This document shows positions 3,001-28,531 of a stretch of DNA of 64,000 bases, one piece after another (within the stretch, counting starts at the first letter, position 1; every line of letters begins with the position of its first letter). The notes under the pieces are model-generated. The model was not told where the DNA came from and searched no databases. It was given only the letters and a program-made list of their open reading frames with translations. A program made the translations under genes and the position numbers. The stretch is from Acholoe squamosa (Eukaryota > Annelida > Polychaeta > Phyllodocida > Polynoidae): contig OX439041.1 of assembly GCA_949317995.1 (NCBI GenBank), forward strand, positions 6,646,001 to 6,710,000, given 5' to 3'.

Positions 3001-3027
3001 GCCCCTCGGGAGATCCCTTTCTAGTTT
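1..3027 (-). CDS. pol: pol polyprotein of element A (partial at left edge)
   Basis: I checked every codon of this frame from 3060 down to 1 and found no stop. After the predicted frameshift it encodes an aspartic protease (DTGA at 2614-2625), a reverse transcriptase with the YLDD catalytic box at 1354-1365, an RNase H region around 700-1000, and the integrase HHCC zinc-binding module around 60-190 (two His, then CPDC with a nearby Cys). The integrase DDE core is off the window. The product is made as Gag-Pol and would copy the element's RNA into DNA and insert it. The frame is -1 relative to gag, with a stop at 3061-3063, so it has no independent start near the domains. It looks functional as far as it can be seen. 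Confidence 0.9.
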
Positions 3028-3030
3028 TCC
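2986..3030 (-). promoter_or_regulatory. Candidate -1 ribosomal frameshift signal, element A
   Basis: The heptamer GGAAAAC (3030-3024) reads G GAA AAC in the gag frame and is followed at once by the gag TAG (3023-3021). Six nucleotides downstream begins GGGATC (3017-3012), which can pair with GATCCC (2991-2986) across a 20-nt loop. Pol is open in the -1 frame from this point. The first three bases are not identical, so the heptamer is a variant of the classic X XXY YYZ type. The same heptamer plus TAG recurs in element C, which supports a functional role. Confidence 0.6.
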
Positions 3031-5804
3031 TCTGTACTTATCCCAGAGACACTCTCCTGTTTACGCGGAACAGGCTTCTCAGCCATACATTCGGGAGCAA
3101 AATGCCCCAGTTTCTGACATCTGAAACATCTCCTTTGAGATTTATCAACTCTTGGTCTCCTTAGAGCTTCTGTTAATCCGGCTATTAATGTTTCCATCAT
3201 GTTAGTCGGAGCAACAGTGGCTGCTACAGTTGAGTTCGCCGTAGAGGCTACACTGCCATGTTGAGTTGATCCGGAAGCTGTTTTACCAGCAACAGATCCT
3301 CCTCTCCCTCTCGAATGTACTTTCCTATACCGCTTTTGTCGGTAATACTTTCCAGCCACATGGACTGAACCAATATATTCTCCGTTTTCATCGGAGACAT
3401 ATTCATCTTCCTCATCAACTTCATTCGATTCAATCGGAGCTAATTGGGAAGTATCATATACCGGAGCAGGTGTACCTCCGTATTGGAAGGGAGCTGCTCT
3501 TACTGGACTAGGTCCAAGACCTACTAAACGTTTCTTCATGTCATGTCCATCAATTGCTATGAACAGATCACTGAAGGAAGTGTCATCTTTCCAGGAGTCC
3601 CACACCAGTTGCTTATGATCCGGATCTCGCAATCCACTATAGAATTGTATGAACAATTCTTGTAGATAACAATCATCGTCATGAGCCCAATTTGGACGTG
3701 CTTTCGAAAGCAAGTCCTGTAGCTCCAAACCAAAGACTTTGTGTGATTCTTTAGGTTTTTGTGTTCTCTTCTTAAAGCTTACCCACGGATCTTCTCTAAC
3801 GGTTGATCCGAAAAGGTATGCGGCACATTCGACCAATTGATCATAGGTACCGTATATTCCGTAAGCTGCTCTCCATTGGTTGAGAGCTACTTTTCCGCCT
3901 TTATTTAACCAACAAATCAAATATGGCAGAGCTTCTTCTTTTGTCCATCCACTACAATTGACTTCGTCGACAAAAGCTTGATACCTGTCCTTCCATGGAT
4001 CATTAGAATCATATGGAGGGGGTTTCCGTGCCTGCCTACGTGCCGGATTATTACATCCGCGTAGTCTATCTGCTTCTCGCATGCTCCAGTTCATGACTTC
4101 CATGCCGTCCGCTCCCTTTCGGTAGCAGTCAATGCCAAGGTTTTGGATACATTGGCTCCTATCAAAGATGGTTTGCATCCCTGCAGGCATAGAAGTTCTC
4201 CTGTTTGGTTTCCTGCCATCTCCTCCTGATCCTGATCCTCCGGATCCGGATCCTCCTGGGCCGCCTGGAGGGTTCCCTCCTGGTGGACCATTATTATTAT
4301 AGCTTCCGGATGAACCACCAGGGCATCCGCCATTGTAACCGGTGTTTCCAGAAGACGCATATCTAGGGTAAGAATCATTTTGATTCCATCCCTGGTTATA
4401 GCTATTACCATTTTGATAATTACCACCTCCTGATGGATTATAATTATTTCTATATCCATAGGAAGATGTTCTTGGTTGATACGTACCGCCATTAATATTG
4501 TTTTGTGGCGGGTTTGGTCTCGGAAAACGTCCATCAGTAGGACCATTACCAGAACCTGGGGTTGGATTCGGTAATCTTGGTACTGCTGGTGTACTGTGGC
4601 CGGGTTGGGGGAAATATGAAGGTGGTGTCAACATATGCCTCATTGGTCCGGGTGCTCTTGGTTGTGCCACGGGTGTATTATTATTATTCCCTGTAGCACC
4701 ATCGTGAGTCGCTTTGATTTTGTGACTCAAATCTGGTATGGGTGGTGCCGGACCTATCGTATCCAGCATTGGAATTACTGGTTTAGATGCGGTTCCATTT
4801 ACTGCAGCATTATCCGGTTTCTTGTAGATTCCGGATACCACATTCTTGTCAGCCCCATCATCAACGAATGGGCTGTATCTAATTGGGGTTGCATCTTTAG
4901 ATGTCTTTCCCAACATTGTAGATACCACAGCTGGATCTATATTACCTATAGTTAACTGGGCTGCTTCTACATATTTATCTAGAGTTATTGCAGTAGTCTG
5001 CAATTCCTGAAGCTCATTTGTGAGTTTCTGTCTATCCTCCTCCAGTTGTTTGTTGTAAGCTATAATGCCTACCCGGATGGTTTCATTGTCTTCAGCTTGT
5101 TTACTACACTGAAGTTTCAATTTATCCAACTCATCCTGATAATGGCGAATTTCGGATTCGAATTTTGCCTTATCAAGGTTTAGTTGGTCGTTCGTATCTA
5201 TGTATGTTTGGATACGAATGTGCCTATTATCATATTCTTTGTTGAATGATTCTCTCATAGATTGAAGTTTTAGTTCTTCATTCTCGAGTTCTTTCATGTA
5301 CTCGCTCCTTCTGGCTTCGAATTCCTTTCGCATGCCAGTTAGGTCCTCTTCCATCTGAAGTTTTTCATGGAATACTTCATCCTTAGCTTTGACCAAGGTA
5401 TTTAAATTCTCGTTCAAAGTTACATAAGTTTCATTCAACAACAGGACATCCGGTCGTTTTAATTCCTCACCTTCCGGTACCGCATAGGTTAAGTCGCCAT
5501 CTATAGCGCTATAATCTAATATTGGTAATTCGGGCCTGGGTAACCTGTAAGGCAGTTCTCCGAATGTTACCCTTTTTCGCATTGGTGCCGGATGTTCTGG
5601 GTTAGTACTACCACCAACTTCGAACATCGAATCACTTAATTCGTCAACAAGCGATTGTTGGCCTATTAAGTTACTATGTCTCTGTATAGACTGTTCGCGT
5701 CGTACAGAGTCTGGCAGATTCTCCTCACTATCATTATAGTGGGGTCCGGGATCTCTCCAAGATGCTGATTCCGCATCTTGCGAGTCCGAATGGGCTTGGA
5801 GCAT
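3021..5804 (-). CDS. gag: Gag of element A
   Basis: Structural protein of about 927 aa, counted from the first ATG (5804). The frame is open further upstream to a GTG at 5918 and through the PBS, so the true start is not certain. In order it has an acidic N-terminal region, a long charged stretch rich in Glu/Lys/Leu predicted as coiled coil (about 5400-4980), a Pro/Gly/Asn/Gln-rich low-complexity section (about 4700-4180), a capsid-like helical region with Retrotrans_gag character (about 4000-3500), and one CCHC zinc knuckle near the end (CFRCQKLGHFAPEC). The long coiled-coil head makes it larger than many Gypsy Gags. The capsid would package the RNA, and the zinc knuckle would bind it. It ends at the TAG that abuts the frameshift heptamer. 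Confidence 0.85.
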   Translation of the reverse strand: MLQAHSDSQDAESASWRDPGPHYNDSEENLPDSVRREQSIQRHSNLIGQQSLVDELSDSMFEVGGSTNPEHPAPMRKRVTFGELPYRLPRPELPILDYSAIDGDLTYAVPEGEELKRPDVLLLNETYVTLNENLNTLVKAKDEVFHEKLQMEEDLTGMRKEFEARRSEYMKELENEELKLQSMRESFNKEYDNRHIRIQTYIDTNDQLNLDKAKFESEIRHYQDELDKLKLQCSKQAEDNETIRVGIIAYNKQLEEDRQKLTNELQELQTTAITLDKYVEAAQLTIGNIDPAVVSTMLGKTSKDATPIRYSPFVDDGADKNVVSGIYKKPDNAAVNGTASKPVIPMLDTIGPAPPIPDLSHKIKATHDGATGNNNNTPVAQPRAPGPMRHMLTPPSYFPQPGHSTPAVPRLPNPTPGSGNGPTDGRFPRPNPPQNNINGGTYQPRTSSYGYRNNYNPSGGGNYQNGNSYNQGWNQNDSYPRYASSGNTGYNGGCPGGSSGSYNNNGPPGGNPPGGPGGSGSGGSGSGGDGRKPNRRTSMPAGMQTIFDRSQCIQNLGIDCYRKGADGMEVMNWSMREADRLRGCNNPARRQARKPPPYDSNDPWKDRYQAFVDEVNCSGWTKEEALPYLICWLNKGGKVALNQWRAAYGIYGTYDQLVECAAYLFGSTVREDPWVSFKKRTQKPKESHKVFGLELQDLLSKARPNWAHDDDCYLQELFIQFYSGLRDPDHKQLVWDSWKDDTSFSDLFIAIDGHDMKKRLVGLGPSPVRAAPFQYGGTPAPVYDTSQLAPIESNEVDEEDEYVSDENGEYIGSVHVAGKYYRQKRYRKVHSRGRGGSVAGKTASGSTQHGSVASTANSTVAATVAPTNMMETLIAGLTEALRRPRVDKSQRRCFRCQKLGHFAPECMAEKPVPRKQESVSGISTEEN

Positions 5805-5924
5805 TAATGATCCATTTCCATTCTCTTGGGCAAGTGATTGCCCTGCTGGGTTAGCTTCCCTAAGGGTGTCTAACCCATGTACTAGCCGTTCGGACGTTAT
5901 AACGTCCGGGCTATACACCAGAAT

Positions 5925-5942
5925 TAACTGGTCACGGCACCA
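5925..5942 (-). other. Primer-binding site, element A
   Basis: On the minus strand this reads TGGTGCCGTGACCAGTTA, starting one base after the LTR end (5944). TGG followed by an acceptor-stem complement is the usual layout for tRNA priming of minus-strand DNA. I did not assign the tRNA. Confidence 0.75.
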
Positions 5943-5943
5943 G

Positions 5944-6322
5944 TGTAAGGGTTTGTGGCCTTACGGACCTGGGGGGTTCGGGTCTTACGGTTCGGAAAAA
6001 AAGAGTAAGACAGTATTCCAAGTGTGTGCCAACGGTTAGGTTTATTACTTAACGCACACTCACGGCTGCCGGATGATATCAAGGAGGCAGCTAATATTAA
6101 AAGACAACGGTTTACATGGTGTGGAGGCCAGAAGGGCCTCTGACGTAGCGGCTGAGCCCTGGGCTTTATATACGGACCCAGGTGTTCGTCGTCAGATGTC
6201 CCCACAGACCTGGATCGGTGCTGCCACCTATCCGGAACCTGAGGAACGTCCGACGACTCGACTCACCCGCCACGTCAGACGGTACCCAACTCCTATGGTT
6301 TAATAACGTGTACCTCTACACA
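5944..6322 (-). repeat. 5' LTR of element A (right boundary uncertain)
   Basis: The LTR ends in CTTACA (minus strand) next to the PBS. It holds a TATA box, TATATAAA (minus strand, 6172-6165), and downstream an AATAAA polyadenylation signal (6046-6041), which fits U3-R-U5 order. Further upstream is TGACTCAG-like AP-1 sequence near 6330. Without the partner LTR the outer end cannot be proved. TACACA at 6322 is one candidate. Confidence 0.6.
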
Positions 6323-10823: not shown

Positions 10824-11485
10824 TTGACATCGGCCATAGAAGAAACCAACAGACATCGTTATTGTACACTTGCTTTGTACCAAAGAGATGCTATGAAGAT
10901 CAAAGAACTATGTAGAGTTAAGGTAACTAACAAACACTTGAATCAGGGTGTAGAGCTTTTTCAGATCTTTTGGAATTACCCATATTCTTTGAGGAACAGA
11001 CCGAGCATACAGTGATGCGTGAAAGTCGTATAACGACACCCCCCAAAAACTTCCAAATGGTCGACATGACCATCTGGAAGCCTGTTTTAGACAAGAACTT
11101 TAAATTGAAATTGGAAATAGAGAAATTAGGAACAATAGAAGACAAACCTTTGGAAGATCTGATAAACCAACTAGATGAAATAAGAATTTGGGAACATTCA
11201 TATTTTTCGAAAGAGAATATACCATATAGTATTATTGCATGCATAGTCATTATCATATCTATAATCATTGCAGTGTTAATGTGTAAGAGGAAAATGTTGC
11301 TAGAGTTGCTTATCAATAAGGTGCAGAGGAGACTCCATAAGGAGGAAGAGTCACACATTGTCAATGCTGAGCAAACTAACAAAGTAACTAACAAACACTT
11401 GAATCAGGGTGTAGAGCTTTATCAAGTTATTACTAATTACACTCACAAACAATTCAAATCCGACTTTCCTGTGGTTTTATATAAG
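10824..11485 (+). pseudogene. Decayed env-like fragment interrupted by element B
   Basis: The reading frames here encode Cys-containing segments (around 10855-10920) and then a frame with an acidic/Leu-rich stretch, a clear hydrophobic membrane segment (IPYSIIACIVIIISIIIAVL) and a basic tail. This is the layout of the C-terminal end of retrotransposon Env or similar type I membrane glycoproteins. A block of about 40 nt beginning TAACTAACAAACACTTG occurs twice (10923-10962 and 11384-11423), a local duplication. There is no start or full ectodomain. Element B is inserted at 11486. Assignment to Env is by overall character, not a specific motif. Confidence 0.45.
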
Positions 11486-11689
11486 TGTGAGGATTTCACA
11501 GTGATCCCTTAATATCAGAGTATCTTACCTTGAAGATGTGGGAGAGACAACTCCAGCACCTGTGTTGTGGTCTGCAGTCAGCTCTAAAGTGCGGGAATCT
11601 CGCCTCCTAAGCCCGCGCGTCGGGCCCGGGATTCCCTGGGGCCGGGGAAACCCCCTGTTGCCTCGCGCGGCAGATGCGCGCGTCTCACA
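11486..11689 (-). repeat. 3' LTR of element B
   Basis: 204 bp, matching 22537-22740. GC-rich at its U3 start, with no clear TATA box or AATAAA visible, so promoter and polyadenylation signals are non-standard or lie outside my recognition. Confidence 0.92.
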
Positions 11690-11700
11690 CTCCTCTCCGT
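11690..11700 (-). other. Polypurine tract, element B
   Basis: On the minus strand ACGGAGAGGAG lies directly against the 3' LTR start, as expected for the plus-strand DNA primer. Between this and ORF3 (11701-11919) no further gene is seen. Confidence 0.8.
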
Positions 11701-11919
11701 TCAGTTTTTAAAGGGCAGGGCACTGATTTGATAATATCCAGACTATGTACATGTTCGCCGGACCTTTCGGTCCAGCGCTACTGCTGCTATATACAGGGTG
11801 CTGGTCTATGATCCCAGCTCTATGATCGTTTCCTACTTGTCTATATGCCTACAACCTATGGCGACGACGACTCCTAACTATGACGCCGACGACTACTAAC
11901 TATGTGTCTTCTCGGGGGT

Positions 11920-13803
11920 TTAGGATTGAGGCCCGAAGAACACCTCAGCGTTCCGTGCTGCAATCCTCAGAATGATGCTACGGGGCAGGCCCCGCAGCTC
12001 CCCTATACGTCTGGCAACCTCCAGGATTGACTCTGGGCAATGCTGTTTTGGATGGATTCCAGGGGGGCACAGGTATGGGCTGTCTGTCTCCAGGAGCAGC
12101 TTGTCCAAGTTGATGTTTTGAACGACCTTCTCCAGCTCTGCGTGGTGGTTAGGGCGTAGTAGCAATGCAGAGATGCTGAAGGACACCTCCGGGAACGACT
12201 GTTCCCAGGCCTTCTGCTCTGCAAGGCCCCCATCAAAGCTGTGGAGTTGGATACGGTGATTCTTGGGTAGCACTTGTGTAAGGACCTGTCGGCACATCCT
12301 ACCAGCCCGTCCATCACCCCTGTCGCGTGTATGGATTACGACTGGCAGTCTCCTTTCTGCAGCTACCGAGGCTAGATTGGCCAGTGCCACCTCCTGGGCC
12401 AGGACCCGTCCATGGCCTTCGTTGTGGTAGAGGTCGATGCCGATCTCCCCCACCGCGACCGCGTCCTGGGTCGCCGCCTCGCGGGTCCGGTTTAGCAGGT
12501 CCTCCAACTCCTCCAGCCGTTCTGGGACTATTGCTGGATGTAGGCCCACCACTCTTAGCACTCCCACCCCCGGGAGACTTTCCATGCGTCCCCAGTCACC
12601 CGGGTAGCATTGGACATCAACCACCGTAAGGGTAGAGAGGTTCCTCCGCCAGCCTTTGTCATAGACAGTGGACCTGGTCGAGTTTCTGGCCAGCTGGCGA
12701 AGGTGACAGTGGGCATCAAAGCCGGGTGGAAGGGTTGACCCCAGGCACCCAGCTGACCTATTTGATGTCTTGATTCTTTGACGGGTGTTCTGGTCACAAA
12801 GCGCCAAGAGGGGTGCCAGCACACGCCAGTGAAGCAGGCAACCTTCGCTTGATGGCGGATTCATGATCCTCTTCGCCGGAGCAGTGAGCCCCAGCGCCTG
12901 ATCATAATGCTGATCATAATGCGCCATGAGTGCTTCTTGGCAGGGTGACACCGAGATCTCTCCCAGTGTGTCCTTGTTCAGCAGGTGGTGTAGGTTGACT
13001 CTCTTAACACCCAGGGAATGCGACAGGTCTTCAAGCATTCCTGCGCACATCCCAACCCAACGGTCCAGCATCCTATCGTCGAATGGTCTTGCTCTTCGGC
13101 ACTGGCTCATATGCTCGGTCAAGCAGCTCGGTCTTGTGAACTGCTCCTGACAGCCCCAGCATGCTGTTTCTGGCTGGATGAAGAATGGCATGTGAGATTG
13201 TACCACATGGCGATGGATGTGGTTAGAACGACTGCACATGTCCGACACTGGGCATGTGCTGGTCTTCCGTCGCTTCTTTACCGCTGGCTGCGGAACGGTA
13301 CCACGCCTCTTGGGCTGGTTATCATTTGGGCTGGGACGACTCTCTATGGTAACCGTCCTAACTTCTTCCTCTTCCTCATGTTCTCTCTTCCTGTGGCCTG
13401 TGGCCAGTGTGACAGACCGCTGTCTGCTTTTCTCCACCGCAGCTCCATCCGGACCACTTGCGAAAGTGACCCGGATTCCCGTTGGTGTTGGGCCGGCTAC
13501 TTCCCGGCCTTGATCTTTCTGTTGGACGATGGACACCAGAGGGGCCACCGTTGGTGTTAGGGTAGCGCCCTTCTGGTCATGTTGCTGCCGTGGTGGGACT
13601 TTATCTTGCCCGGGTTCTGTTGACCTGGTCGAGTTCATCCAGGTTGGAAGTCCCGCCATCATTGGTCCCGCCATCATGGGTAGGGGAGACCCCCACTGTG
13701 GTAACGACCAGGGCGAGCCAAACAGAAGAGGTGCTTGGCCCATGCTGGCTGTTGCTGCTGATGGAAGGGGCATTGGGACCAGGATGAAACCATTTGGTGG
13801 CAT
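11920..13803 (-). CDS. ORF3 of element B: zinc-finger TatD-type metallonuclease
   Basis: About 627 aa from the first ATG (13803); the frame is open to 13857, just after a good splice acceptor. The N-terminal third is Pro/Gln/Gly-rich and disordered. A basic stretch (KKRRK) then precedes two Cys/His fingers: one CPVSDMC..HRHVVQSH, one CWGC..H..C. The C-terminal about 270 aa is a TatD-family TIM-barrel hydrolase with the family's metal ligands: HCH in FDAHCHL, Glu in GEIGID, His in VVIHTRD, His in LHSFDGG, and Asp in LLETDSPYL. TatD enzymes are metal-dependent DNases/exonucleases. All ligands are present, so activity is plausible. It sits after pol where env would be. Possible roles, which I only infer, are cDNA trimming, integration-site or repair processing, or counter-defence. 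It could also be a captured host TATDN gene. Confidence 0.88.
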   Translation of the reverse strand: MPPNGFILVPMPLPSAATASMGQAPLLFGSPWSLPQWGSPLPMMAGPMMAGLPTWMNSTRSTEPGQDKVPPRQQHDQKGATLTPTVAPLVSIVQQKDQGREVAGPTPTGIRVTFASGPDGAAVEKSRQRSVTLATGHRKREHEEEEEVRTVTIESRPSPNDNQPKRRGTVPQPAVKKRRKTSTCPVSDMCSRSNHIHRHVVQSHMPFFIQPETACWGCQEQFTRPSCLTEHMSQCRRARPFDDRMLDRWVGMCAGMLEDLSHSLGVKRVNLHHLLNKDTLGEISVSPCQEALMAHYDQHYDQALGLTAPAKRIMNPPSSEGCLLHWRVLAPLLALCDQNTRQRIKTSNRSAGCLGSTLPPGFDAHCHLRQLARNSTRSTVYDKGWRRNLSTLTVVDVQCYPGDWGRMESLPGVGVLRVVGLHPAIVPERLEELEDLLNRTREAATQDAVAVGEIGIDLYHNEGHGRVLAQEVALANLASVAAERRLPVVIHTRDRGDGRAGRMCRQVLTQVLPKNHRIQLHSFDGGLAEQKAWEQSFPEVSFSISALLLRPNHHAELEKVVQNINLDKLLLETDSPYLCPPGIHPKQHCPESILEVARRIGELRGLPRSIILRIAARNAEVFFGPQS

Positions 13804-14434
13804 CTGGTTTGGCTGAGCAGGCTGGCTCTGATCTATCTCTAGTAGGTGATGCTTCAAGCTGCAATGGTGAAGAGAAGTCGAGGTCTATAACTTCATCTTA
13901 CATAATCTAGTGGGACTACTTGTGTACTACGTCTACTTATGGGTTGCTTATAAGGTCCGGATTCCCGTTGGTGTTGGGCCGGCTACTTCCCGGCCTTGAT
14001 CTTTCTGTTGGACGATGGACACCAGAGGGGCCACCGTTGGTGTTAGGGTAGCGCCCTTCTGGTCATGTTGCTGCCGTGGTGGGACTTTATCTTGCCCGGG
14101 TTCTGTTGACCTGGTCGAGTTCATCCAGGTTGGAAGTCCCGCCATCATTGGTCCCGCCATCATGGGTAGGGGAGACCCCCACTGTGGTAACGACCAGGGC
14201 GAGCCAAACAGAAGAGGTGCTTGGCCCATGCTGGCTGTTGCTGCTGATGGAAGGGGCATTGGGACCAGGATGAAACCATTTGGTGGCATCTGGTTTGGCT
14301 GAGCAGGCTGGCTCTGATCTATCTCTAGTAGGTGATGCTTCAAGCTGCAATGGTGAAGAGAAGTCGAGGTCTATAACTTCATCTTACATAATCTAGTGGG
14401 ACTACTTGTGTACTACGTCTACTTATGGGTTGCT
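13471..14434. repeat. 478-bp tandem duplication at the pol/ORF3 junction
   Basis: 13471-13948 is repeated at 13957-14434 with no difference that I noticed, separated by the 8-nt filler TATAAGGT. The unit contains the ORF3 5' end and the candidate splice acceptor. The upstream copy therefore carries a truncated ORF3 start (14343-13948) that ends within the filler, while the downstream copy leads into full ORF3. Confidence 0.9.
13859..13885 (-). promoter_or_regulatory. Candidate 3' splice site before ORF3
   Basis: Minus strand CTTCTCTTCACCATTGCAG followed by C: a pyrimidine tract ending in CAG, 55 nt before the first ORF3 ATG. A second copy lies in the duplicated unit near 14345. It pairs naturally with the donor in the 5' LTR to make a short ORF3 mRNA that skips gag and pol. 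Confidence 0.5.
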
Positions 14435-14438
14435 ATTG

Positions 14439-17400
14439 TTAGTGGAGAATACGAGGAAGCTGAGAAAGGCGGCGAATCGTGTTTAAAAGTCTTGCGGGAA
14501 GGCGTATGGGTCTTCCTCTTCTCGACCTTCTTTCCACTAAGTCGCTGCCCGGCTCCACTGGGCTACTTTGATCATGATGTGTATTTTGTTTTCTTATGGT
14601 GTTTCTTTTTAGGTCCACCCCGAGCCCTCTGGGCTGGTGCGCTGCAGTCTGAGGATTATCTTCTGTCGGGGATCCAGCAGGCTCATCAGGGGCTGCTAAA
14701 GGATTCCTAGCTAGAGGTTCAGGAGTCTGGTTGTCAGGGGCAGCTAAGGATGGATCTTTCTTCTGCCCCATGTCAGGGGGTCCAGTGCCCAGGGCCCTGC
14801 CATTGTCTGGGGCAGCCAGGGGTGTGTCTTCTCTCTGGCTACTGTTGGGGGGGCCGTACTCCGGGGCTGTGTCATTATCCGGGGCAGCTTCCTGTTGATT
14901 GTCTTCTGCAGTATGTCCCACTGGCTTGTTCGATGCGGCTGTGGGATCCCTTGCAGCTGGTCCTGCAGGCTGGTTGTTGGGGGCAGCTGGGTATGCATCT
15001 TCTCTCTGCCTTATGTCAGGGGGGCCATGCCCCTGGGTTAGGTCGTGCTCTTCCTCATCTGCGGATTCCTCCAGATGCAACAGCCGATGTCTCATACGGC
15101 GTAGCCACATTGGAATTGCTCTGTCTCTGCAGATGCTTAGACGGTCATGGTGGATTACTTCCACCTTTTTCCTCCCTCGGATCTTCAGAAGCACCGGTGA
15201 CAGGACTGCCTCAACTAGGTATGGGCCCTTCCACACCGGTTTGAGCTTGGGGCTCTCGCCCTTTTTGTTCGCTGTGTCCCTCTTGTATACTAGGTCACCT
15301 TGTTCGTACTTCACATGGGACAACTTTTGGTCATAAGTCTTTTTCTGGAGCTCCTGTTTTGCCTTGAGACCTTCACGCGCCATTTCATGGACTTCCTCCA
15401 TGGTTCGTCGTAGCTTTTGGACATACTCCGAGGCAGAGACAGGAATATTGTCGTTCCTGGCGGTGAGTCCGAAAACCACATCCTCTGGTTGCGTAACTTC
15501 CCGGCCCAGCATCATCATGTTGGGGCTATATCCAGTTTGCTTGTGGGGAACCGCTCGGAGGGCTCCAGCCAGGACAGACAGGTGTCTATCCCATTGCCTT
15601 GCCTTTCCCTCGAGAAAGCAGCGCACCATCTGCAGGATTGTTCTATTGTACCGTTCCACCTGTCCATTGGATGCAGGCCTGTATGGTGTTGTTCTGGTTT
15701 TCTTTACCTTTAACAAGTCACACACGCTGCGTATGACATTGCCGTCAACATTGCGACCCTGATCGGTATGTAGTTGTTGTGGGCATCCCCAGCGCGCTAC
15801 AAAGTCATCTACAAACTTATCTGCGATGATCTCGGCCTTCTGATCCGGGATGGCATAGCATTCCACCCACTTGGTGAATTGGTCAACAATAACTAGGATA
15901 CAGGTGTTCTTACTCTCTGATTCCGGTAGCGGCCCCAGTATGTCTAGGTGGACCCTTTCTAGCGGTGCACCAGCATGGTATTTCCCAAGGGGGCCACGTG
16001 CCTTCTGGCAGGGTTTCTTATTTCGGGTACAGGTGGCACATGACCGGACAAAGTCCCGGCAGTCGCTCTGCAGCTGGAACCAGATAAATCCTTGTTTCAG
16101 ACGTGCATATGTTTTGTCCTGCCCCAGATGACCAGCCGTGGCGTGGTCATGGCAGAACTCCAGTATTTCCTGTCTGTGCTCCTTCGGTGCTATCAGTAGG
16201 AATCTAGGCTTATTCAGCGTTTCCCACTTGTAGTGTAGCACCCCTTCTCTCATAACCAGCTGTGACCTGTGCACCCAGAAGTACTTTGTGGCTGGGCTGC
16301 TGATGGCAAGAGCAGCTTGCGACGGCTCGCATCCTGCCTCCATCCACCCTATGATGGGGCTAAGGTCATGGTCCTTCAGTTGTTTTTCCCTTAATTGTTC
16401 CTTAGAATACCCGCCTAGGCATGTATCCAGCATTGTCTGCTCATCTTCCGCATTTAGATCATCAACATCAAGCATTCTGATCACTGTCCCTTGTGTCGTA
16501 CTCGACTCGGCTTCGCCTGTATCCAAGCATGCTTCCAGGCTCCGTAATGCAAGCGGCACTACATCATCCACATCTGTCTCGAAGCGGCTCCACTGGTCAT
16601 GCGCTCTCTCACAAAACCTGCATCCACCGCATGGCAGGAGCTGAGGCTTGGATCCCGCCCTATAGCAGTCACAGTATTCCACCGTGTCTGGGATGCGGGA
16701 CAGGGCATCAGCATTGATGTGCTTCTTCCCTGGACGGTGCACAATCGACATGTCATATTGGGAGAGTTCCTCTAGCCACCTTGATAGTTGACCTTGGATG
16801 CTTTTAAAGCCCATCAGCCACGTGAGGCTGTTGTGGTCGGTCCTGACGAGAAAGGGCCTCCCAAGCAGGTAGTGGCGGTACTGCCGCGACAGCATCACCA
16901 CGGCCAGCAGTTCTTTCCGTGTTGTGCAGTATTTACGTTGTTCAGCGGTTAGGACAAAGCTGTTGTAGGCTATTATCTGCACTTTCCCGTCAACTATCTG
17001 CCCTAACTCCCCCGCTACAGCTACATCAGAGGCATCACAGTCCAGGATGAATTTGTATCTGACGTCTGGGTAAGGTAGTATTGGCGCTGCCAGTAACGCA
17101 CTCTTGATTAGGGACTGTGCTGTGGCCGCCTCCCCTGACCACTCAAATTTTGTCTTGGGGCTGGTCAGGGCGTAAAGTGGAGCAGATATTTCGGCAAACC
17201 GCGGGATAAACTCACGGTGGTAATTCGCATACCCAAGGAACGATTCAAGGTCTTTGACACATCTCGGTGTTGGCCACTTTTCTATAGTTTCTCTGCTCTC
17301 TGGGTTTATCTGGATCCCTTCTGGTGTTACTTGCCTGCCAAGGAATGTGACCTTGTTCTGAAACAGACTGCACTTCTTAGGTTTAAGTTTGAGGTCATAT

Positions 17401-19241
17401 TCTCCAAACCTCTCTAGGGCTTCAACCAGGTTATCCCTGGCTTGGGAGAAGCTGTTTCCAAAGACCACCACGTCATCTAGGTATGACAGAACCTTCTTCC
17501 ACTGCATACCATGGAGAACAAGCTGGACTGCCCTCTGGAATGTCGCAGGGGCATTACATAGGCCGAAACCCATACGTGTCCACTCATAGAGCCCATACTT
17601 TGTGATGAAAGCTGTTTTGTGCTGATCAGCTTCGTCGAGCTCTATCTGCCAGTAACCAGAATTCATGTCCAGGGTGCTGTAGAACCGACTTCCCGCCAGC
17701 GAGTCTAAGCACTCCTCGATTTTTGGCAGGGGGAAGGCATCCTTTATGGTCACACTGTTCAGGCCCCGATAATCGAGGCACCATCGGACTGACCCGTCTT
17801 TTTTACGTACCAACACAGGGACTGCAGCCCATGGGGATGATGAGGGCCTGATTACTCCAGCATCGAGCATCTTGTTAAGATGCTTCTCCTCTTCCTCTTG
17901 GAAGCCCAATGGGGTGCGGCGCATGCGCTGCCGGATGGGTTTGGCATCCCCTGTGTCTATGGTGTGTTTTATAGCTGAGAAACAACCCAGGTCTGTGTCA
18001 TCCTTTGAGAATACTGACTGGTACTCCTTAAGGATAGTGCACAGCTCTCGGGCCTGTTCCAGGTTGAGCACTGAGGCTGACCTGTGGAACAAATCGCGAA
18101 GATGCGGTGGTATCTGCCCCGCCAGGTCTTTGACATCCTCTGCCGTGACTGGCCGTTTGGGTTCATCGTCTACATGTTCCAAGTTCCTAAGGCCAGCCGG
18201 CACCGTTGACATGTCGAGTTCCGAGTCCATGACCCCTCCAGGCTGTGCCGACCCGAGAACTTGGCCTGCCTTGACCTTGACATAGTTATCACTGACATTA
18301 CATAACTCGAGTACTGCGGTGTCTGAGTTTTTATCTAGGACACTGTGTGGGCACAGGACATCCGGGTGAAAGAGTCTTGGGCTCAGAACCCGATCTCCTT
18401 CAGGCACATCCAGTCCCTGATTTATACACACCGCCACCTGTCTGGATGAATGTGGTGGTAATACAACTCTTTTGAGGCAGACCACTGGGGAGACCCCATA
18501 TGTGTCACCTGACCTGCTCTGGCGATATTTAGCTCTGATACTGTGACCGTTGATCTGGACTGTTGCCATTGTGAGATCAATTGAGGCCCCTACGGCTTTA
18601 AAAAAGTCCAGACCCAGTATGACAGAATCCGTTATTGGCGCAACATACATGTGCCATTTGAATGTAAGTCCCTCCGTTTCGAGGGTCACTGGGTCTGTGA
18701 AGTGGCCCTTCATGAAGCTGTCCGGTCCCGCCCCCTTCAACTTGATGGTCTCCTTTCGTGCAGGAGGGTGCTCCATGCTTTCTACAAAGTTCGAGCTGAG
18801 TACAGACACTTGTGCGCCTAGGTCGATCAGAGCGTTCACTGAGGTCCCATTGATTTCAACTGGTAGGACAAGACTCTCAGGGGTGTCTTTTATTGAGTTC
18901 TTTGTACGGAAGTAGACATTACGTATCCGAGGGTCCTCATGTCTCGCACCATCCTCCACAGTGTGCACCGTGTAGGATTTAGCATCAGAGTGAGGGCCCC
19001 CAGTGGGTAAGTCTGGCCTTCCCGACTGCCACATTTTGGCGTTCTCTGGGGGGCGACCTTTGTCGACTTCAAGCCGAGGCTCTTTATGCCTTACCCCATC
19101 CCTCACAGTGTGCACCGTGTGGGAGTTGGCGCCGGCACTAGAGCCTCCAGTAACTGATGATGTTTGCCTTTGACCTATATCTGGCGGACGACCCTGGTCA
19201 GCCCGGAATGGTATCGGGTCCCGTCCATTCCTGGCTAGTTT
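14439..19241 (-). CDS. pol: pol polyprotein of element B
   Basis: One open frame of about 1,600 codons in the -1 frame after gag. The N-terminal linker contains two copies of a TVHTV.DG.RH repeat. The protease active site reads DLGA (18813-18824), whereas the family usually has DTGA or DSGA. Reverse transcriptase has YLDD at 17472-17483. RNase H follows (FILDCDAS, then RTDHNSL). Integrase has the HHCC module (HATAGH..CATC) and the DDE core (LDILGP, TDQGRN, GQVERYN), followed by a GPY/F module (WKGPYLV). The last about 210 aa form a Pro/Asp/Ala-rich repetitive tail ending 5 nt beyond the 478-bp duplication. The protein looks intact except for the unusual protease triad. It would supply all enzymes for copying and insertion. 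Confidence 0.93.
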   Translation of the reverse strand, partial: KLARNGRDPIPFRADQGRPPDIGQRQTSSVTGGSSAGANSHTVHTVRDGVRHKEPRLEVDKGRPPENAKMWQSGRPDLPTGGPHSDAKSYTVHTVEDGARHEDPRIRNVYFRTKNSIKDTPESLVLPVEINGTSVNALIDLGAQVSVLSSNFVESMEHPPARKETIKLKGAGPDSFMKGHFTDPVTLETEGLTFKWHMYVAPITDSVILGLDFFKAVGASIDLTMATVQINGHSIRAKYRQSRSGDTYGVSPVVCLKRVVLPPHSSRQVAVCINQGLDVPEGDRVLSPRLFHPDVLCPHSVLDKNSDTAVLELCNVSDNYVKVKAGQVLGSAQPGGVMDSELDMSTVPAGLRNLEHVDDEPKRPVTAEDVKDLAGQIPPHLRDLFHRSASVLNLEQARELCTILKEYQSVFSKDDTDLGCFSAIKHTIDTGDAKPIRQRMRRTPLGFQEEEEKHLNKMLDAGVIRPSSSPWAAVPVLVRKKDGSVRWCLDYRGLNSVTIKDAFPLPKIEECLDSLAGSRFYSTLDMNSGYWQIELDEADQHKTAFITKYGLYEWTRMGFGLCNAPATFQRAVQLVLHGMQWKKVLSYLDDVVVFGNSFSQARDNLVEALERFGEYDLKLKPKKCSLFQNKVTFLGRQVTPEGIQINPESRETIEKWPTPRCVKDLESFLGYANYHREFIPRFAEISAPLYALTSPKTKFEWSGEAATAQSLIKSALLAAPILPYPDVRYKFILDCDASDVAVAGELGQIVDGKVQIIAYNSFVLTAEQRKYCTTRKELLAVVMLSRQYRHYLLGRPFLVRTDHNSLTWLMGFKSIQGQLSRWLEELSQYDMSIVHRPGKKHINADALSRIPDTVEYCDCYRAGSKPQLLPCGGCRFCERAHDQWSRFETDVDDVVPLALRSLEACLDTGEAESSTTQGTVIRMLDVDDLNAEDEQTMLDTCLGGYSKEQLREKQLKDHDLSPIIGWMEAGCEPSQAALAISSPATKYFWVHRSQLVMREGVLHYKWETLNKPRFLLIAPKEHRQEILEFCHDHATAGHLGQDKTYARLKQGFIWFQLQSDCRDFVRSCATCTRNKKPCQKARGPLGKYHAGAPLERVHLDILGPLPESESKNTCILVIVDQFTKWVECYAIPDQKAEIIADKFVDDFVARWGCPQQLHTDQGRNVDGNVIRSVCDLLKVKKTRTTPYRPASNGQVERYNRTILQMVRCFLEGKARQWDRHLSVLAGALRAVPHKQTGYSPNMMMLGREVTQPEDVVFGLTARNDNIPVSASEYVQKLRRTMEEVHEMAREGLKAKQELQKKTYDQKLSHVKYEQGDLVYKRDTANKKGESPKLKPVWKGPYLVEAVLSPVLLKIRGRKKVEVIHHDRLSICRDRAIPMWLRRMRHRLLHLEESADEEEHDLTQGHGPPDIRQREDAYPAAPNNQPAGPAARDPTAASNKPVGHTAEDNQQEAAPDNDTAPEYGPPNSSQREDTPLAAPDNGRALGTGPPDMGQKKDPSLAAPDNQTPEPLARNPLAAPDEPAGSPTEDNPQTAAHQPRGLGVDLKRNTIRKQNTHHDQSSPVEPGSDLVERRSRRGRPIRLPARLLNTIRRLSQLPRILH

Positions 19242-19244
19242 TTT
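19205..19244 (-). promoter_or_regulatory. -1 ribosomal frameshift signal, element B
   Basis: The heptamer AAAAAAC (19244-19238) reads A AAA AAC in the gag frame and is directly followed by the gag TAG (19237-19235). After a 6-nt spacer comes a perfect 7-bp stem, GGAATGG (19231-19225) with CCATTCC (19211-19205), around a 13-nt loop. Heptamer, spacer and stem match the classic retroviral layout, and pol is open in the -1 frame across it. Confidence 0.88.
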
Positions 19245-20995
19245 GGAGGCTGTTGCTTTGGCTTGGTGCACTCTCTGGCAAAGTGGCCTTGCTCCCCGCA
19301 GTTGTAGCATTCACTCGACCTGCCAGGCGAGGTGCTGCGGGAGGGGCTACGTGCCGGACTTCTCGCGGGACTCCTGCTCTGCCTGTAGCTGGGGTAGGGA
19401 CTAGGAGCTCTGGCAGAGCGCTGTTGGTGTTGCTGCAGCTGTTCGTTTACAACAGTTACTACCATCTTGCGAAAATCCTCTTTTAGATCGGCCAGCTGGC
19501 TTGATTCCAAGCGTAACACGCCCGGCTGCCCCGCTGGCTGTATCTCATCATTGTTCGAGAAGGAGACACTCCTTATCTTCTTGTCACCCAGGATAAACCG
19601 ATTGTTGTGGATGGAGTGTCTGACACTCTTTATTGCCTCTCTGATTGATTTCAGGTTCTTTTCTCCTGCAATCAGTGCAGCCTTCTGGTCTGAGCAGCCC
19701 TGTAGAAAGGAATCAACTGCTGCCCTCTCAATGGTACGCTCCGAGTCCCCTCTGAATCCTTCTCTCACCAAATCCATGCAACGCTGCGCGAATGCATCAA
19801 GCACCTCATCCGGCTCTTGGCGCAGGTGTTGGAGTTCCCTGCGTGCTGTCGCCGGTTGCTTTCTAGCTCCAAATCGATCTTTCAGTGCCTTGCAGACCTT
19901 CTTATAGTCCCGTCTGGTCTTTTTGGGTAATGAGCCGAAGAAGATGAGGGCGTCATCCCTCAGATGCTGTATGAGGCTATCTGTCTTCTCCTCTTTACTC
20001 CACCCGCACCTACGAGCAATCCTCTCGAACTGCTCCTTGTAGATCCCCCATTTCAGGCGACCATCGTAGGTGGGAATCTTCCCCTGGTGGGGTTTGTCTC
20101 TGCCGTCCCTTGTTCTGTGCACTGGGGGTCCATCCTCGTCACTCGAGCTCGATGAGCTGTCATCAGAGTCTGAGGATTCCGTATCCTCGACCCTCGAGTG
20201 CCTGCTCCTCTTCGACTCCTTTAGAACTCTGACGCTGGCCTGGCTCACAGGTGGACGAGGGGCCTTGTGTTGACGACCATCCGTCCCGGCACTGACGTTC
20301 CAGTCAGTCTGTGCCCTCTGCGTGTATGGTTGTGACCCTTTCGGGACATACACGTTGTCATGTACCAGCCCTTTCTGATAGGGCGTCGAATGGAGTTGCA
20401 AGGAACTCTCACTCGGTGCTGGGCTACTCAGCGCTGCCCATGTCCTCTGTGCGAGAGCTGGGTTCTGTCGAAGTATGGCCTGCAGCGTCTCTGCTACATC
20501 GTCTGTTGGGGGCGAGTCAACAGGTTGGCGCTCCGCCGGGGTGGCCCCGGCCGATGCTGAGGTTGCCCCGGCCCCGGCCGCTGCTTGATGCGACTCCGGT
20601 TGTGCAACGTCCCTCTGATCGGTTTGAGGCCGCCCTTGCCCCTGGGCCTCCAGCCGCTGTTTGTCTGCCTCCAGCTCCTGTATCCGCGATAAGGACTTCT
20701 GCAGCAGGGCCTTCATCTCCTCTAAGCCCATCGCAGCCCCAGCCCCTTCTAGAGAAAGGACTGTCACATCAGCAACGCTGTCCTCTTTCTGGCCAAAAGA
20801 CACTCTGCCCTTTACGACGCACTCCTGCAGGATCGCACCTACCTCTGCGCTGAGGTACGTGAGCATCCCTGTGATAGATGTGAAGGGTCCGTCATCCTGC
20901 ACGCACTTGACGATCTCACGCGCACGCGCTGACCCGATCCCTGGGAGGGACTTGAGGTCTTCCACACCAGCCGCATTAATGTCGAACCCGACCAT
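19235..20995 (-). CDS. gag: Gag of element B with N-terminal helix-hairpin-helix
   Basis: 586 aa from ATG 20995. Residues about 1-65 form a ComEA-like helix-hairpin-helix module (NAAGVEDLKSLPGIGSARA, then GPFTSI), a DNA-binding fold not usual in Gag. Next come a short Glu/Leu/Gln coiled coil (about 90-120), an acidic Ser-rich patch (about 270-290), a Retrotrans_gag-type capsid region (about 305-425, including Trp-Gly-Ile-Tyr and FGSLP motifs), an Arg-Ser-Pro repeat tail, and one CCHC knuckle (CYNCGEQGHFAREC) close to the end. The frame is uninterrupted and ends at the frameshift heptamer. It would build the particle and bind RNA; the HhH could also bind the DNA copy, which is inference. Confidence 0.9.
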   Translation of the reverse strand: MVGFDINAAGVEDLKSLPGIGSARAREIVKCVQDDGPFTSITGMLTYLSAEVGAILQECVVKGRVSFGQKEDSVADVTVLSLEGAGAAMGLEEMKALLQKSLSRIQELEADKQRLEAQGQGRPQTDQRDVAQPESHQAAAGAGATSASAGATPAERQPVDSPPTDDVAETLQAILRQNPALAQRTWAALSSPAPSESSLQLHSTPYQKGLVHDNVYVPKGSQPYTQRAQTDWNVSAGTDGRQHKAPRPPVSQASVRVLKESKRSRHSRVEDTESSDSDDSSSSSSDEDGPPVHRTRDGRDKPHQGKIPTYDGRLKWGIYKEQFERIARRCGWSKEEKTDSLIQHLRDDALIFFGSLPKKTRRDYKKVCKALKDRFGARKQPATARRELQHLRQEPDEVLDAFAQRCMDLVREGFRGDSERTIERAAVDSFLQGCSDQKAALIAGEKNLKSIREAIKSVRHSIHNNRFILGDKKIRSVSFSNNDEIQPAGQPGVLRLESSQLADLKEDFRKMVVTVVNEQLQQHQQRSARAPSPYPSYRQSRSPARSPARSPSRSTSPGRSSECYNCGEQGHFARECTKPKQQPPKN

Positions 20996-22517
20996 CCTCA
21001 GATTACCAACGTGATGCGATTAATATCAGAGGAGGGTGACAGATAGATCCCAGCGTGAGAAGCCGAGAAAAATGTCAGTACTGGCCAGGTGATAGATGAG
21101 AATGCCGAAGCAGGACTACACAATCACTGGCTTATCTTATACAATGTTAGTGCTTCCCCTCTTCACTTACTTGTCCGGATCCTCAATGAGGGGGGGGGGG
21201 GGTCAGTCAGTTAGGTGGATGAGGAATATTCACTGTCTTAATTGATGATGAGACTGGTGACATGCATATACTAAGTTACGTCCTTATTGAGTATGTTATG
21301 CACACAATATCAAGTTTTGCCAGATTTTTCACAAAAATTGGCTTAAAGTTCAATCGAATGCAGCATCAACAGAGAACATTGGTAATAATGTCATAGGTGT
21401 AAGGGTATTTCACAGAAAATCCAAAATACCAGGTAATAATAAGAGTCTGAGTCTTCTGGCCTTTCCAATCTACAGGTGGGGGGGGGGGGAATATAGATTT
21501 TGAATTCTCGAAGTGAGGGGGGGGGGGGGTCACCTTACACAGGTCCACCCCAAAATGCCAGGAATCAAACAAGTTGATATTGGCTACTTTCTGAATTTTC
21601 CAAATGGGGGGGGGGGGGTACTGTAGATCCACCCCGGAATGCCAGAAATCAAACAAGTTTATATTGGCAACTTTCTGAATTTTTCAAATGGGGGGGGGGG
21701 GTGTACTGTAGATAGCTTCACCCCAGGATGCCAGAAATCAAACAAGTTTAGATTGGCAACTTTCTGACTTTTTCAAATGGGGGGGGGGGGTACTGTAGAT
21801 AGCTTCACCCCAGAATGCCAGAAATCAAACAAGTTGATATTGGCTAAATCTTCAAGCACAGTACAAGACACAAAACAATGGTCTTAATATAAATATAGAA
21901 AATGCCAGATACCTAGGGGCATTGGCTGTATTCCTATTTTCCACTATGGAGAGCCACCTTGTCCAAGGAGAATTCAAAATGGCATCCAAACCACATGGGC
22001 AGAAAATGCCAAACACCCAATTAATTAATTTTTCCAAAATTGACAAAAATAATTATCCCAGTGGTATTATCAATAATTTTCAGTCACTTTCCAGTAGATT
22101 GTCACTGTGAGATAATTCAAGAATTTTGGGGATGGCTTGGATTGTCAATTCAAACCAGTGGACAATGAGGCTTAACTGCCAGATCCAAGATGGCTACTCT
22201 GTAAGATTCCAGTAATCCTTATTAGTGGCAGCTTGACCCAATTCCTCCAAGACAGGCCAAAGTGCACAAAAAGTGGCCAAACTTTATGGCAAACACACAG
22301 AAATGATGGCCTAAGTGTGGTTAACACAATAAATCCAATGGTTTCCCCAGAATTTAGAGTTCTCTTTGTGAGCAGATGGATTAAAGATATGCTCACTGTA
22401 CACAAAGAAGTGATGGGGGAGGCTGAGGGGTTTCCTCCTGGCTTCCTCCAAAACAATCACAAAACAAACAGTCCTAGTGCCCACAGGTTTTGTAGACACA
22501 CAATTAATCCACAAGGG
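20996..22517 (-). other. Long untranslated leader of element B
   Basis: About 1.5 kb between PBS and gag without a coding frame. It includes a G-tract at 21190-21201 and the tandem repeats at 21466-21850. The rest (21860-22510) shows no recognisable gene. Such leaders usually hold RNA-packaging and translation signals, but no specific one can be named. Confidence 0.6.
21466..21850. repeat. Tandem repeats with poly-G tracts in the element B leader
   Basis: Three to four units of very roughly 90-120 bp, each with a run of 9-11 G (plus strand) followed by TACTGTAGAT, CACCCC, and GCCAGAAATCAAACAAGTT. In the element's own RNA these are C-tracts. Confidence 0.75.
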
Positions 22518-22535
22518 CAAGTACTCCTGGCACCA
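22518..22535 (-). other. Primer-binding site, element B
   Basis: Minus strand TGGTGCCAGGAGTACTTG, one base after the 5' LTR end. Its complement ends in TCCTGGCACCA, reminiscent of a tRNA-Leu acceptor end, though I am not sure of the isoacceptor. Confidence 0.8.
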
Positions 22536-22536
22536 A

Positions 22537-22740
22537 TGTGAGGATTTCACAGTGATCCCTTAATATCAGAGTATCTTACCTTGAAGATGTGGGAGAGACA
22601 ACTCCAGCACCTGTGTTGTGGTCTGCAGTCAGCTCTAAAGTGCGGGAATCTCGCCTCCTAAGCCCGCGCGTCGGGCCCGGGATTCCCTGGGGCCGGGGAA
22701 ACCCCCTGTTGCCTCGCGCGGCAGATGCGCGCGTCTCACA
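22537..22740 (-). repeat. 5' LTR of element B
   Basis: 204 bp, TGTGAG to CTCACA, matching 11486-11689. Near its downstream end it carries a consensus 5' splice site. Confidence 0.92.
22573..22583 (-). promoter_or_regulatory. Consensus 5' splice site in the element B LTR
   Basis: Minus strand CAAG|GTAAGAT, with the GT at 22579-22578. No ATG precedes it in the short leader exon, so splicing to an acceptor upstream of ORF3 would create a subgenomic message. Confidence 0.5.
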
Positions 22741-23047
22741 TAAGAATAGATAGAGCCTAGATTATTTGTATGGTAGTGTGGTACTTCAGAACATACCAGA
22801 CGATCGTGTGGTATGCTCTTATCAGCTCTAAACCAATGAGAAACCAGCTTTTTGCATAGGCCACGCATTGACCAATCAGCGTTCAACAAGCTGCTGATGA
22901 TGTCATAGGGCAAAATGGCGATGTAAACAACATTCTTGCCAATGTATACCATTTTTTCACAATATAGACAACAAAAACACAATGTAAACAACATTATTTG
23001 GAAGGGGAAGGTAGAAATAAGTCTTATTTTCGTGTAATAAATATTGT

Positions 23048-26839: not shown

Positions 26840-28486
26840 ATGGCCGACGCTGAAGAAGGTCCTCAACCCAATCAGGCAGCTGAGAAGATAGGGGCCTATG
26901 AGAAGACCATCCAAGATGCAGTTACTGCCCTAGAAGCAAACAAAGCCCAACATGATGCTCATGCCTTTGCCTCAAAGGAAAGGGAGAGGATCCTCAGTCA
27001 ACAATTAGATGACCATCGGAAGGCCCTAGAACAGGCACAACAACAGATATCAGATCTCATGAAGCTGGTACCAACTCAGACCTCACAGCCTCCCACACCC
27101 ACCACAACACCTATTGTCACACCATCTGCCTCTGGATCCAAGGAGGATGTCATGATCTCCATGATGTCCAACATGACCAGGATCCTAGACAGACAACAAC
27201 ACGACGACAGGAAGATCAGGCAACACGAGGTAACCAAACCCAAAACTTTTTCTCACCCATCACCACTCATGTCAACAGCACTATTTATTGATCACAAATT
27301 CCCAGAGTATCTGAAGGACAGGTACAAATAAACAGACAGTGACACCATGGTAACATATTTACCCAAGTACCTTGAAGGACAAGCATTGGCTTGGTTTGAA
27401 ACCTTCAAGGAAAGTGCCACACCTGATAAGTTGACATGGTCCAATGTAGTACATGAACTAAAAGAGTATTTTGCTACTCAAGACAATATTATCTCCAGGA
27501 CTGCACTCCGTGCACAAGAGATAGATGAACCTGTATCTGATTATGCAATGTATCTCAGAAAAGCGTGTAATGCCCAATGCCTAAAGGACGACACCTTATT
27601 TAAAACATTCACCCAAGGCATGAGGCCCTGGATCTCTGTAGCTCTTGAAAACAAGAAAATAGACTCTTTTAACCAAGCCCTAGACCTAGCCTTAGAGGTT
27701 GAGACCCAAGAAAGATCTAGGAAAACAAGGGATGCAGAGTCTAACCCAAAGTCTACAAAAAGAAAGGTCCAGGAAGTCACCACTGGTTCAGAGAAGGAAG
27801 ATGTTAACCAAATGTCCAGTGCCCATGTAAAGCAACAGGAAGATAAGGTTGTCTCCAAAGATCCCACCGGTAGATATAGAGGAAATAACTATGACCCCAA
27901 CTACCGCTCCAGTAGAGGTAGAGGGGGTAACAGCAACAACCAGGGGGGTCACAACAGTAGAAAGGACAACAGCTCTTCCAACTCCAACAATGGTAACTCT
28001 TCATACAGTGATAGGAGAGACAGAACCCCAAGTAATGGCAGATCCTATAATAATCAAGGATCCAACAGTAGGAGCCATAGTCCACATAGGAACTACAACA
28101 GTGGATCCTACAACAACAATGGTTCCTACAACAACCAGGGTTCCAACAACTCTGGATCCTATAGTCAAGGATCCAACGGTAGAAGCCACAGTCCACATAG
28201 GAACTACAACAGTGGATCCTACAACAACAACGGTGCCTACAACAATCAGGGATCCAACAACTCTGGATCCTACAGCAGCCAGGGTTCTAATAACTCTGGG
28301 CAATACAGCAACTCTGGTCATTATAACCAGAGTTTCAACTCACATCAGAAGGATCACAAACCTAACACAAGAGGTTACCAGGGGAACCAACACAGTAACC
28401 CCCAAACAATACCTCAAGTGATGGATCAACTCTCCAAGCTCCTGGTCGCAAGCATCGCAACCACCCCACAGAACCAGGAAAACTAG
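26840..28486 (+). pseudogene. gag: gag of element C, with one in-frame stop
   Basis: Starts at an ATG in strong context (CCACCATGG). A TAA at 27329-27331 interrupts a frame that otherwise continues without shift to 28486. The first part has a coiled coil (about 26880-27070). A Retrotrans_gag capsid domain follows (about 27280-27700; LEGQALAWFETF, then LRAQEIDEPVSDYAMYL). The tail is rich in Ser, Asn, Gly and Arg (RGRGG, RDRTPSNGRS) with an internal duplication of about 123 bp (near 28063 and 28186). There is no CCHC zinc knuckle, so RNA binding probably relies on the basic disordered tail. It ends GAA AAC TAG at the frameshift site. Confidence 0.85.
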
Positions 28487-28531
28487 GAAAACTAGGATGT
28501 CACAGTGCCGATGGGCCAGTGCACTGTGACA
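28477..28531 (+). promoter_or_regulatory. Candidate -1 frameshift signal, element C
   Basis: GGAAAAC (28477-28483) followed directly by the gag TAG, then a 9-nt near-copy giving a second GGAAAACTAG (28486-28495). A perfect 10-bp stem follows: TGTCACAGTG (28498-28507) with CACTGTGACA (28522-28531), 14-nt loop. The stem lies 14 nt from the first heptamer and 5 nt from the second. Pol is open in the -1 frame across the site. Confidence 0.7.

Follow-up and report, generated by a model that had tools for sequence, protein, structure and literature searches.

A 64,000-nucleotide stretch of the genome of the polychaete Acholoe squamosa (C7:6646001-6710000; hereafter the window) contains on its minus strand, at 11486-22740, a Ty3/Gypsy retrotransposon consisting of a 5' long terminal repeat (LTR), a leader, gag, pol, a third gene termed ORF3, and a 3' LTR. 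Judging from the sequence of this element and its relatives, we consider it probable, at about 80%, that it represents a Gypsy family which has stably acquired a TatD gene of a TATDN2-like clade as its third gene, in the env position, and that the product is a predicted active nuclease. Taken by itself, the nuclease activity predicted from the metal ligands of ORF3 and the selection acting on it appears highly probable, and an action on intermediates of the element's own replication or integration is a more tentative proposal, which we would put just short of an even chance.

The gene and its parts are as follows.

11920..13803, minus strand: ORF3, 627 amino acids (ATG at 13803, stop at 11920), made up of a disordered tail, an N-module and a TatD domain
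12769..13272, minus strand: ORF3 N-module, residues 178-345, with a C2H2-like finger, a second finger and a helical LLHWRVL domain
11923..12729, minus strand: ORF3 TatD domain, residues 359-627, with six metal ligands

In a Pfam search the TatD domain spanned the whole PF01026 profile (1-253, E 7e-39), and the alignment placed all six metal ligands (HxH, E, H, H, D) at H365, H367, E453, H491, H521 and D574, just as an earlier first-pass annotation of the window had claimed; the predicted model has a TIM-barrel fold resembling that of solved TatDs. The two zinc fingers which that annotation had noticed were also found in the window copy. Finger 1 is C2H2-like, with H199 and H204 in 16 of the 17 aligned family rows and C184 in 15 (P0007 and P0018 are truncated there), and finger 2 is complete (C215, C218, H231 and C235) in only three of the 17, namely the window, P0001 and P0002. 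For the N-module, Pfam yielded only a below-cut-off C2H2 finger, and there was no PDB or BFVD match at E <= 0.001. Apart from that finger and TatD, Pfam found neither a DEDDy nor an env domain in ORF3, no transmembrane predictor having been applied for the latter.

Searching the genome (1.48 Gb in 63 contigs) gave 79 matches to ORF3, some copies being counted as two rows, among which two subfamilies could be recognized: subfamily I, with 15 rows at 98-100% identity over at least 490 amino acids, including the window, and subfamily II, with 14 rows at 84-86% identity over at least 545 amino acids. We fetched 28 copies, comprising the 14 other members of subfamily I (L098-L111) and 14 of subfamily II (L112-L125), and every one of them showed the order pol tail, ORF3, LTR match. 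By coordinates, an ORF3 match lay downstream of pol in all 15 subfamily-I copies. The same was true of 19 of the 20 pol rows assigned to subfamily II, which are 88-99% identical over 268 or more of 553 residues, the sole row without one being a partial copy at C5:19214015; in some copies the ORF3 behind pol was fragmentary and up to ~2 kb distant. Two divergent ORF3 loci outside the 28, L136 and L137, both had an LTR match on the 3' side, and of the two only L137 had a pol-tail match. A splice-acceptor-like motif preceded ORF3 in all 14 of the copies fetched for subfamily I and in 13 of the 14 for subfamily II. At a further locus, L149 (C11:39273400-39274400), a single long open frame leads from an integrase-like stretch to the end of the TatD domain, probably through an internal deletion.

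Nonsynonymous-to-synonymous rate ratios (dN/dS, omega) were calculated by NG86 for the window and 17 of the 28 fetched copies, L105, L107, L110, L111, L112, L114, L116, L117, L118, L122 and L125 having been removed by an open-frame filter, and L108, L109, L123 and L124 having contributed just those pieces that were seen to be open. When the ORF3 of the window was paired with seven copies of subfamily II, dS was 0.34 and omega 0.27 overall, with values of 0.42 for the tail, 0.11 for the N-module and 0.20 for TatD (range 0.14-0.32). In the same order, Fisher tests on one pair, that with L113, gave p values of 1.9e-4, 4.6e-13 and 1.8e-15. Within subfamily I (11 copies, pairs not independent) the pooled ratio was 0.21, and pol showed an omega of 0.29-0.35 between the subfamilies in three pieces, a single stop in the L140 pol match having been skipped. 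Thus, ORF3 is under purifying selection between the subfamilies, most strongly in the N-module and TatD, because omega is as low as 0.11 and 0.20 there at a dS of 0.34; the loss of purifying selection across copies, which the first-pass annotation had named as a possible undoing of its proposal, was not what we found. In pol, dS between the subfamilies was just 0.045-0.062 up to about codon 1435, and the region from reverse transcriptase to integrase was ~98% identical at the DNA level (L138, L139 and L112-L125 compared with the window). Past about codon 1435 the pol tail was 63-69% identical in most copies, and from the ORF3 leader to the 3' LTR the identity was 72-94% in 200-nucleotide bins. 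The 3' module therefore seems to have had a history different from that of the reverse transcriptase-integrase region, most simply via recombination between elements.

A protein search with ORF3 returned 62 matches, of which 16 combined N-module and TatD (P0018 with a partial N-module). Two of them, P0001 and P0002, matched ORF3 at 46% identity, with 99% of the query part covered. Named homologues came from Mytilus, Ruditapes, Diadema and Haliotis, and a symbiont metagenome-assembled genome supplied one. All six TatD ligands were present in 17 of 18 family members. We built two trees in which the family was placed among other TatDs drawn at random from 74 (35 in a tree of 55 rows, 20 in one of 47). 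In the 55-row tree the ORF3 protein family (18 rows) stood on one side of a 97/81 branch that recurred in 99% of bootstrap trees. The 47-row tree separated the ORF3 families, TatDs associated with Helitrons (see below), the host locus L148 and the protein P0051 from 21 other TatDs (99/94), and joined the Helitron-associated TatDs, P0051 and L148 in one group (92/78). L148 (C1:125710600-125713900) is an intron-containing host gene with its TatD spread over exons; we tentatively label it TATDN2-like by its motifs. From these relationships, the element TatDs most likely derive from a TATDN2-type cellular gene, in one or two captures. L148 also has an apparently duplicated exon (2845-2949 and 2961-3236). 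P0051, which stands beside the element TatDs in the 55-row tree, is a TatD protein with a Schlafen AlbA_2 domain, and an HMM search found no N-module in it.

A second carrier of TatD emerged when the host genome was searched with PF01026, which gave 113 matches, 12 of them full-length and, by coordinates, not ORF3 copies. Five of these were fetched (L143-L147), and all five had Pif1 and/or OTU coding sequence upstream, as called by Pfam for L143, L144 and L147 and by nucleotide similarity to those for L145 and L146. The frame that follows encodes a CCCH-like finger and TatD; all ligand motifs were recognized by pattern in four loci, and the glutamate that the pattern missed in L144 was present on reading. 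Since a polypyrimidine-CAG acceptor-like site precedes the TatD frame in four of the five loci, TatD looks like their last exon. The 4 kb immediately upstream of L146, termed L154 (C1:111916100-111923600 for both together), encode Helitron_like_N (E 1.8e-24) and the beginning of PIF1; L146/L154 is thus a Helitron with Rep (HUH) and a Pif1-type helicase, one of the five loci being checked for Rep. For the L146/L147 pair omega was 0.24 (20 synonymous and 16 nonsynonymous differences), the other pairs being at or near saturation. Animal Helitrons of the Rep-Pif1-OTU type resemble L146/L154, with its Helitron_like_N, PIF1 and OTU-type region, to which the TatD frame is added; L146/L154 has nothing in common with the Gypsy element beyond the TatD type. 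OTU is a usual component of animal Helitrons, whereas TatD is not known as one.

We consider it an evenly balanced proposition that unrelated mobile elements recurrently carry TATDN2-type TatDs, which selection keeps catalytic, in a zinc-finger/helical version in Gypsy and a CCCH-finger version as the apparent last exon of Helitrons; by shared architecture, the Gypsy-type version is perhaps also present in related mollusc and sea urchin loci. If so, a common need, such as the clearing of RNA:DNA hybrids or the trimming of ends at the site of integration or replication, would be met via the same host repair enzyme. The presence of TatD in Gypsy and in Helitrons of one genome raises the question of which intermediate such different elements must both cut.

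In the window, the element has the following further features.

22537..22740, minus strand: 5' LTR, 204 bp, TG...CA, 204/204 identical to the 3' LTR
11486..11689, minus strand: 3' LTR
22741..22744: target-site duplication (TSD) TAAG, copy 1
11482..11485: TSD TAAG, copy 2
22518..22536, minus strand: putative primer-binding-site (PBS)-like stretch, starting TTGG and adjoining the 5' LTR, read directly, no tRNA matched
11690..11698, minus strand: polypurine tract (PPT) GGAGAGGAG, purine-rich, adjoining the 3' LTR, read directly
21517..21844, minus strand: leader minisatellite, ~87-bp units with poly-C runs in the RNA sense
21165..21173, minus strand: candidate splice-donor-like CAAGTAAGT, upstream of gag
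19235..20995, minus strand (open frame from 21019): gag, with HHH_3, Retrotrans_gag and a CCHC knuckle, from the ORF list and Pfam
19238..19244, minus strand: slippery heptamer AAAAAAC in gag phase, inside the gag/pol overlap, just before the gag stop
14439..19310, minus strand: pol, with aspartic protease, reverse transcriptase, RNase H and integrase (H2C2, rve), from the ORF list and Pfam
13957..14434, minus strand: extra copy of a 478-bp duplication, holding the ORF3 leader and a truncated ORF3 N-terminus
13859..13883, minus strand: splice-acceptor-like polypyrimidine tract and CAG, ~55 nucleotides before the ORF3 ATG

With TG...CA ends, a short TSD and gag followed by protease, reverse transcriptase, RNase H and integrase, the copy is a Ty3/Gypsy element. 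As first annotated, gag and pol are open (21019-19235 and 19310-14439) with the expected Pfam domains, the LTRs are identical up to their edges, where the identity stops, and TAAG flanks the element on both sides; the PPT was likewise confirmed as a purine-rich tract, and the PBS claimed with it is represented by the putative TTGG-initial stretch. The element is probably young, as had been stated, on the strength of 0/204 LTR differences (rule-of-three bound ~1.5%). The pol frame is -1 relative to gag, and pol would be produced by -1 frameshifting at the overlap; ORF3 would come from a spliced, env-type mRNA joining the donor-like site at 21173 to the acceptor-like site at 13859. The zinc-finger/helical N-module may then bring the nuclease to the element's nucleic acid, where, in the course of reverse transcription or integration, it could trim or clear RNA:DNA hybrids, flaps or 3' ends.

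The layout of ORF3 is that of env-bearing Gypsy elements of the errantivirus type, with a third gene between pol and the 3' LTR and an acceptor-like site before it, whereas ORF3 encodes a nuclease and has no Pfam env domain. It differs from TATDN2, a vertebrate TatD paralogue, in being one uninterrupted, element-borne frame with an N-module, and the clade link between the two runs only through L148, tentatively TATDN2-like by its motifs. Human TATDN2 is reported to degrade RNA both as a 3' exonuclease and as an endonuclease and to resolve R-loops in host nuclei (PMC12709183), because of which RNA:DNA hybrids would be the first candidate substrate. ORF3 would thereby link the gene repertoire of LTR elements to the clade of an R-loop-acting host repair nuclease. 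Some invertebrate 'TATDN2' annotations may also be mobile-element genes; in the giant squid, a Hox cluster figure legend carries a TATDN2 label beside ZMYM1 and POGK (PMC6962438). The nearest precedent is found in bdelloid rotifers, whose Juno and Vesta LTR elements carry a DEDDy-exonuclease or GDSL esterase ORF3 (Rodriguez, Kenefick and Arkhipova 2017, PMC5408684). As in the element described here, this enzymatic ORF3 lies 3' of pol with its catalytic residues mostly intact, and its enzyme type recurs in an unrelated class of retroelements, Athena. The enzyme differs, being RNase D-like DEDDy in Juno/Vesta and a TIM-barrel TatD with a zinc-finger N-module here, as does the second carrier, a Penelope-like element in rotifers versus a Helitron here. 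The term TatD is absent from the main text of that paper, and we found no title describing a TatD gene within an LTR retrotransposon in a search that had most subscription papers outside it. The suggestion that this is an undescribed kind of third gene accordingly holds for TatD and has the DEDDy ORF3 as a precedent: a TatD ORF3 is a new enzyme class for LTR elements, and enzymatic ORF3s as such are known.

Several observations weigh against a stably maintained, catalytic third gene. Internal stops interrupt ORF3 in 1/11 full-length subfamily-I and 5/11 full-length subfamily-II rows, and the pooled ratio within subfamily II (7 copies, pairs not independent) was 0.57. The window copy, described at first as intact, does have its LTRs, TSD and open gag, pol and ORF3, but it carries an exact 478-bp tandem duplication (13471-13948 and 13957-14434, with an 8-bp filler between) and lacks an upstream, in-frame ORF3 ATG, 11 codons 5', present in 14/14 fetched subfamily-I copies. 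The duplication is private to it among the copies compared, because the gap from pol to ORF3 is ~638 bp in the window and 152-154 bp in the ten copies L098-L107. A Haliotis family member, P0054, is missing three ligands. The first-pass annotation had asked whether element-borne TatDs form one clade. The ORF3 family stood together in the 55-row tree; in the 47-row tree its two halves made an unresolved fork with host and Helitron-associated TatDs, so that this tree does not demonstrate a common origin for the proteins with an N-module. Long branches lead to P0004 and others in both trees. In forward frames of ~4.7 kb past pol, no N-module or TatD was found at any of nine loci of the nearest sister lineage of Gypsy, whose pol is 60-67% identical (past pol, a LINE-like insertion is present in L127, and L133 has a broken pol end), nor at the one locus of a lineage with 38% pol. 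The sister lineage thus seems to manage without ORF3, and retrotransposition of Gypsy elements in general therefore does not depend on it. Finally, TatD enzymes take several substrates, and more than one role would fit.

This last point bears on an alternative that we regard as unlikely while giving it real weight, namely that an active ORF3 nuclease is used on host chromatin, at R-loops or damage, or against host defence. TATDN2 does act on R-loops in host nuclei (PMC12709183), the disordered tail evolves faster (omega 0.42), and ORF3 is accessory, not having been found in the sister lineage; yet the TatD of a Helitron, which has no reverse-transcribed intermediate, fits shared DNA intermediates equally well. 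It is improbable that the TatD fold is catalytically dead and has been retained for nucleic-acid binding or as an env-like structural protein: P0054 has lost three ligands, and no activity has been demonstrated for the rotifer enzymatic ORF3s either (PMC5408684), but the six ligands persist in nearly all family members, their motifs recur in the five Helitron-associated TatDs, and the N-module and TatD are the most constrained parts. Still less credible is a passive passenger that is open only through recent amplification of one master, as the 98-100% identity of subfamily-I copies might suggest, since ORF3 of subfamilies I and II has diverged to a dS of 0.34 with an omega of 0.11-0.20 in its domains, and neutral simulation to the 46% identity of P0001/P0002 produced 4-22 stops per 450 codons in 200 runs. 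That a host TatD gene was inserted just once, into one Gypsy copy, is conceivable in that TatD genes are common in cells and the window alone has one copy, but it is refuted by linked, diverged copies (79 genome matches, the same place in 28/28, two subfamilies with omega well below 1, ORF3 behind 15/15 and 19/20 pol rows where family copies lacking it had been the feared outcome), and the TatD of L148 is distant and split by introns.

Outside ORF3, the N-terminus of Gag is a helix-hairpin-helix, a DNA-binding motif (PF12836, HHH_3, E 8e-10; frame 19238-21019). Such a motif in Gag is unusual as far as we know. In P0118, a related Gypsy pol of JGI origin, the N-terminus bears a macro domain (PF01661), a further enzyme attached to this clade. 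The window holds two further Gypsy elements. One, at 27332-36185, has a Ty3_capsid gag, a pol across several frames and two env-position open frames at 33984-36185 with no convincing Pfam match; the other, at 10-5960 on the minus strand, has a gag-like open reading frame with a zinc knuckle (3021-5960) and a pol match (2661-10). The element carrying ORF3 has inserted close to the end of an open frame, 10931-11512. This frame has a hydrophobic stretch resembling a transmembrane segment, along with 60-bp direct repeats (10920-10979 and 11381-11440), and is perhaps the env end of another element.

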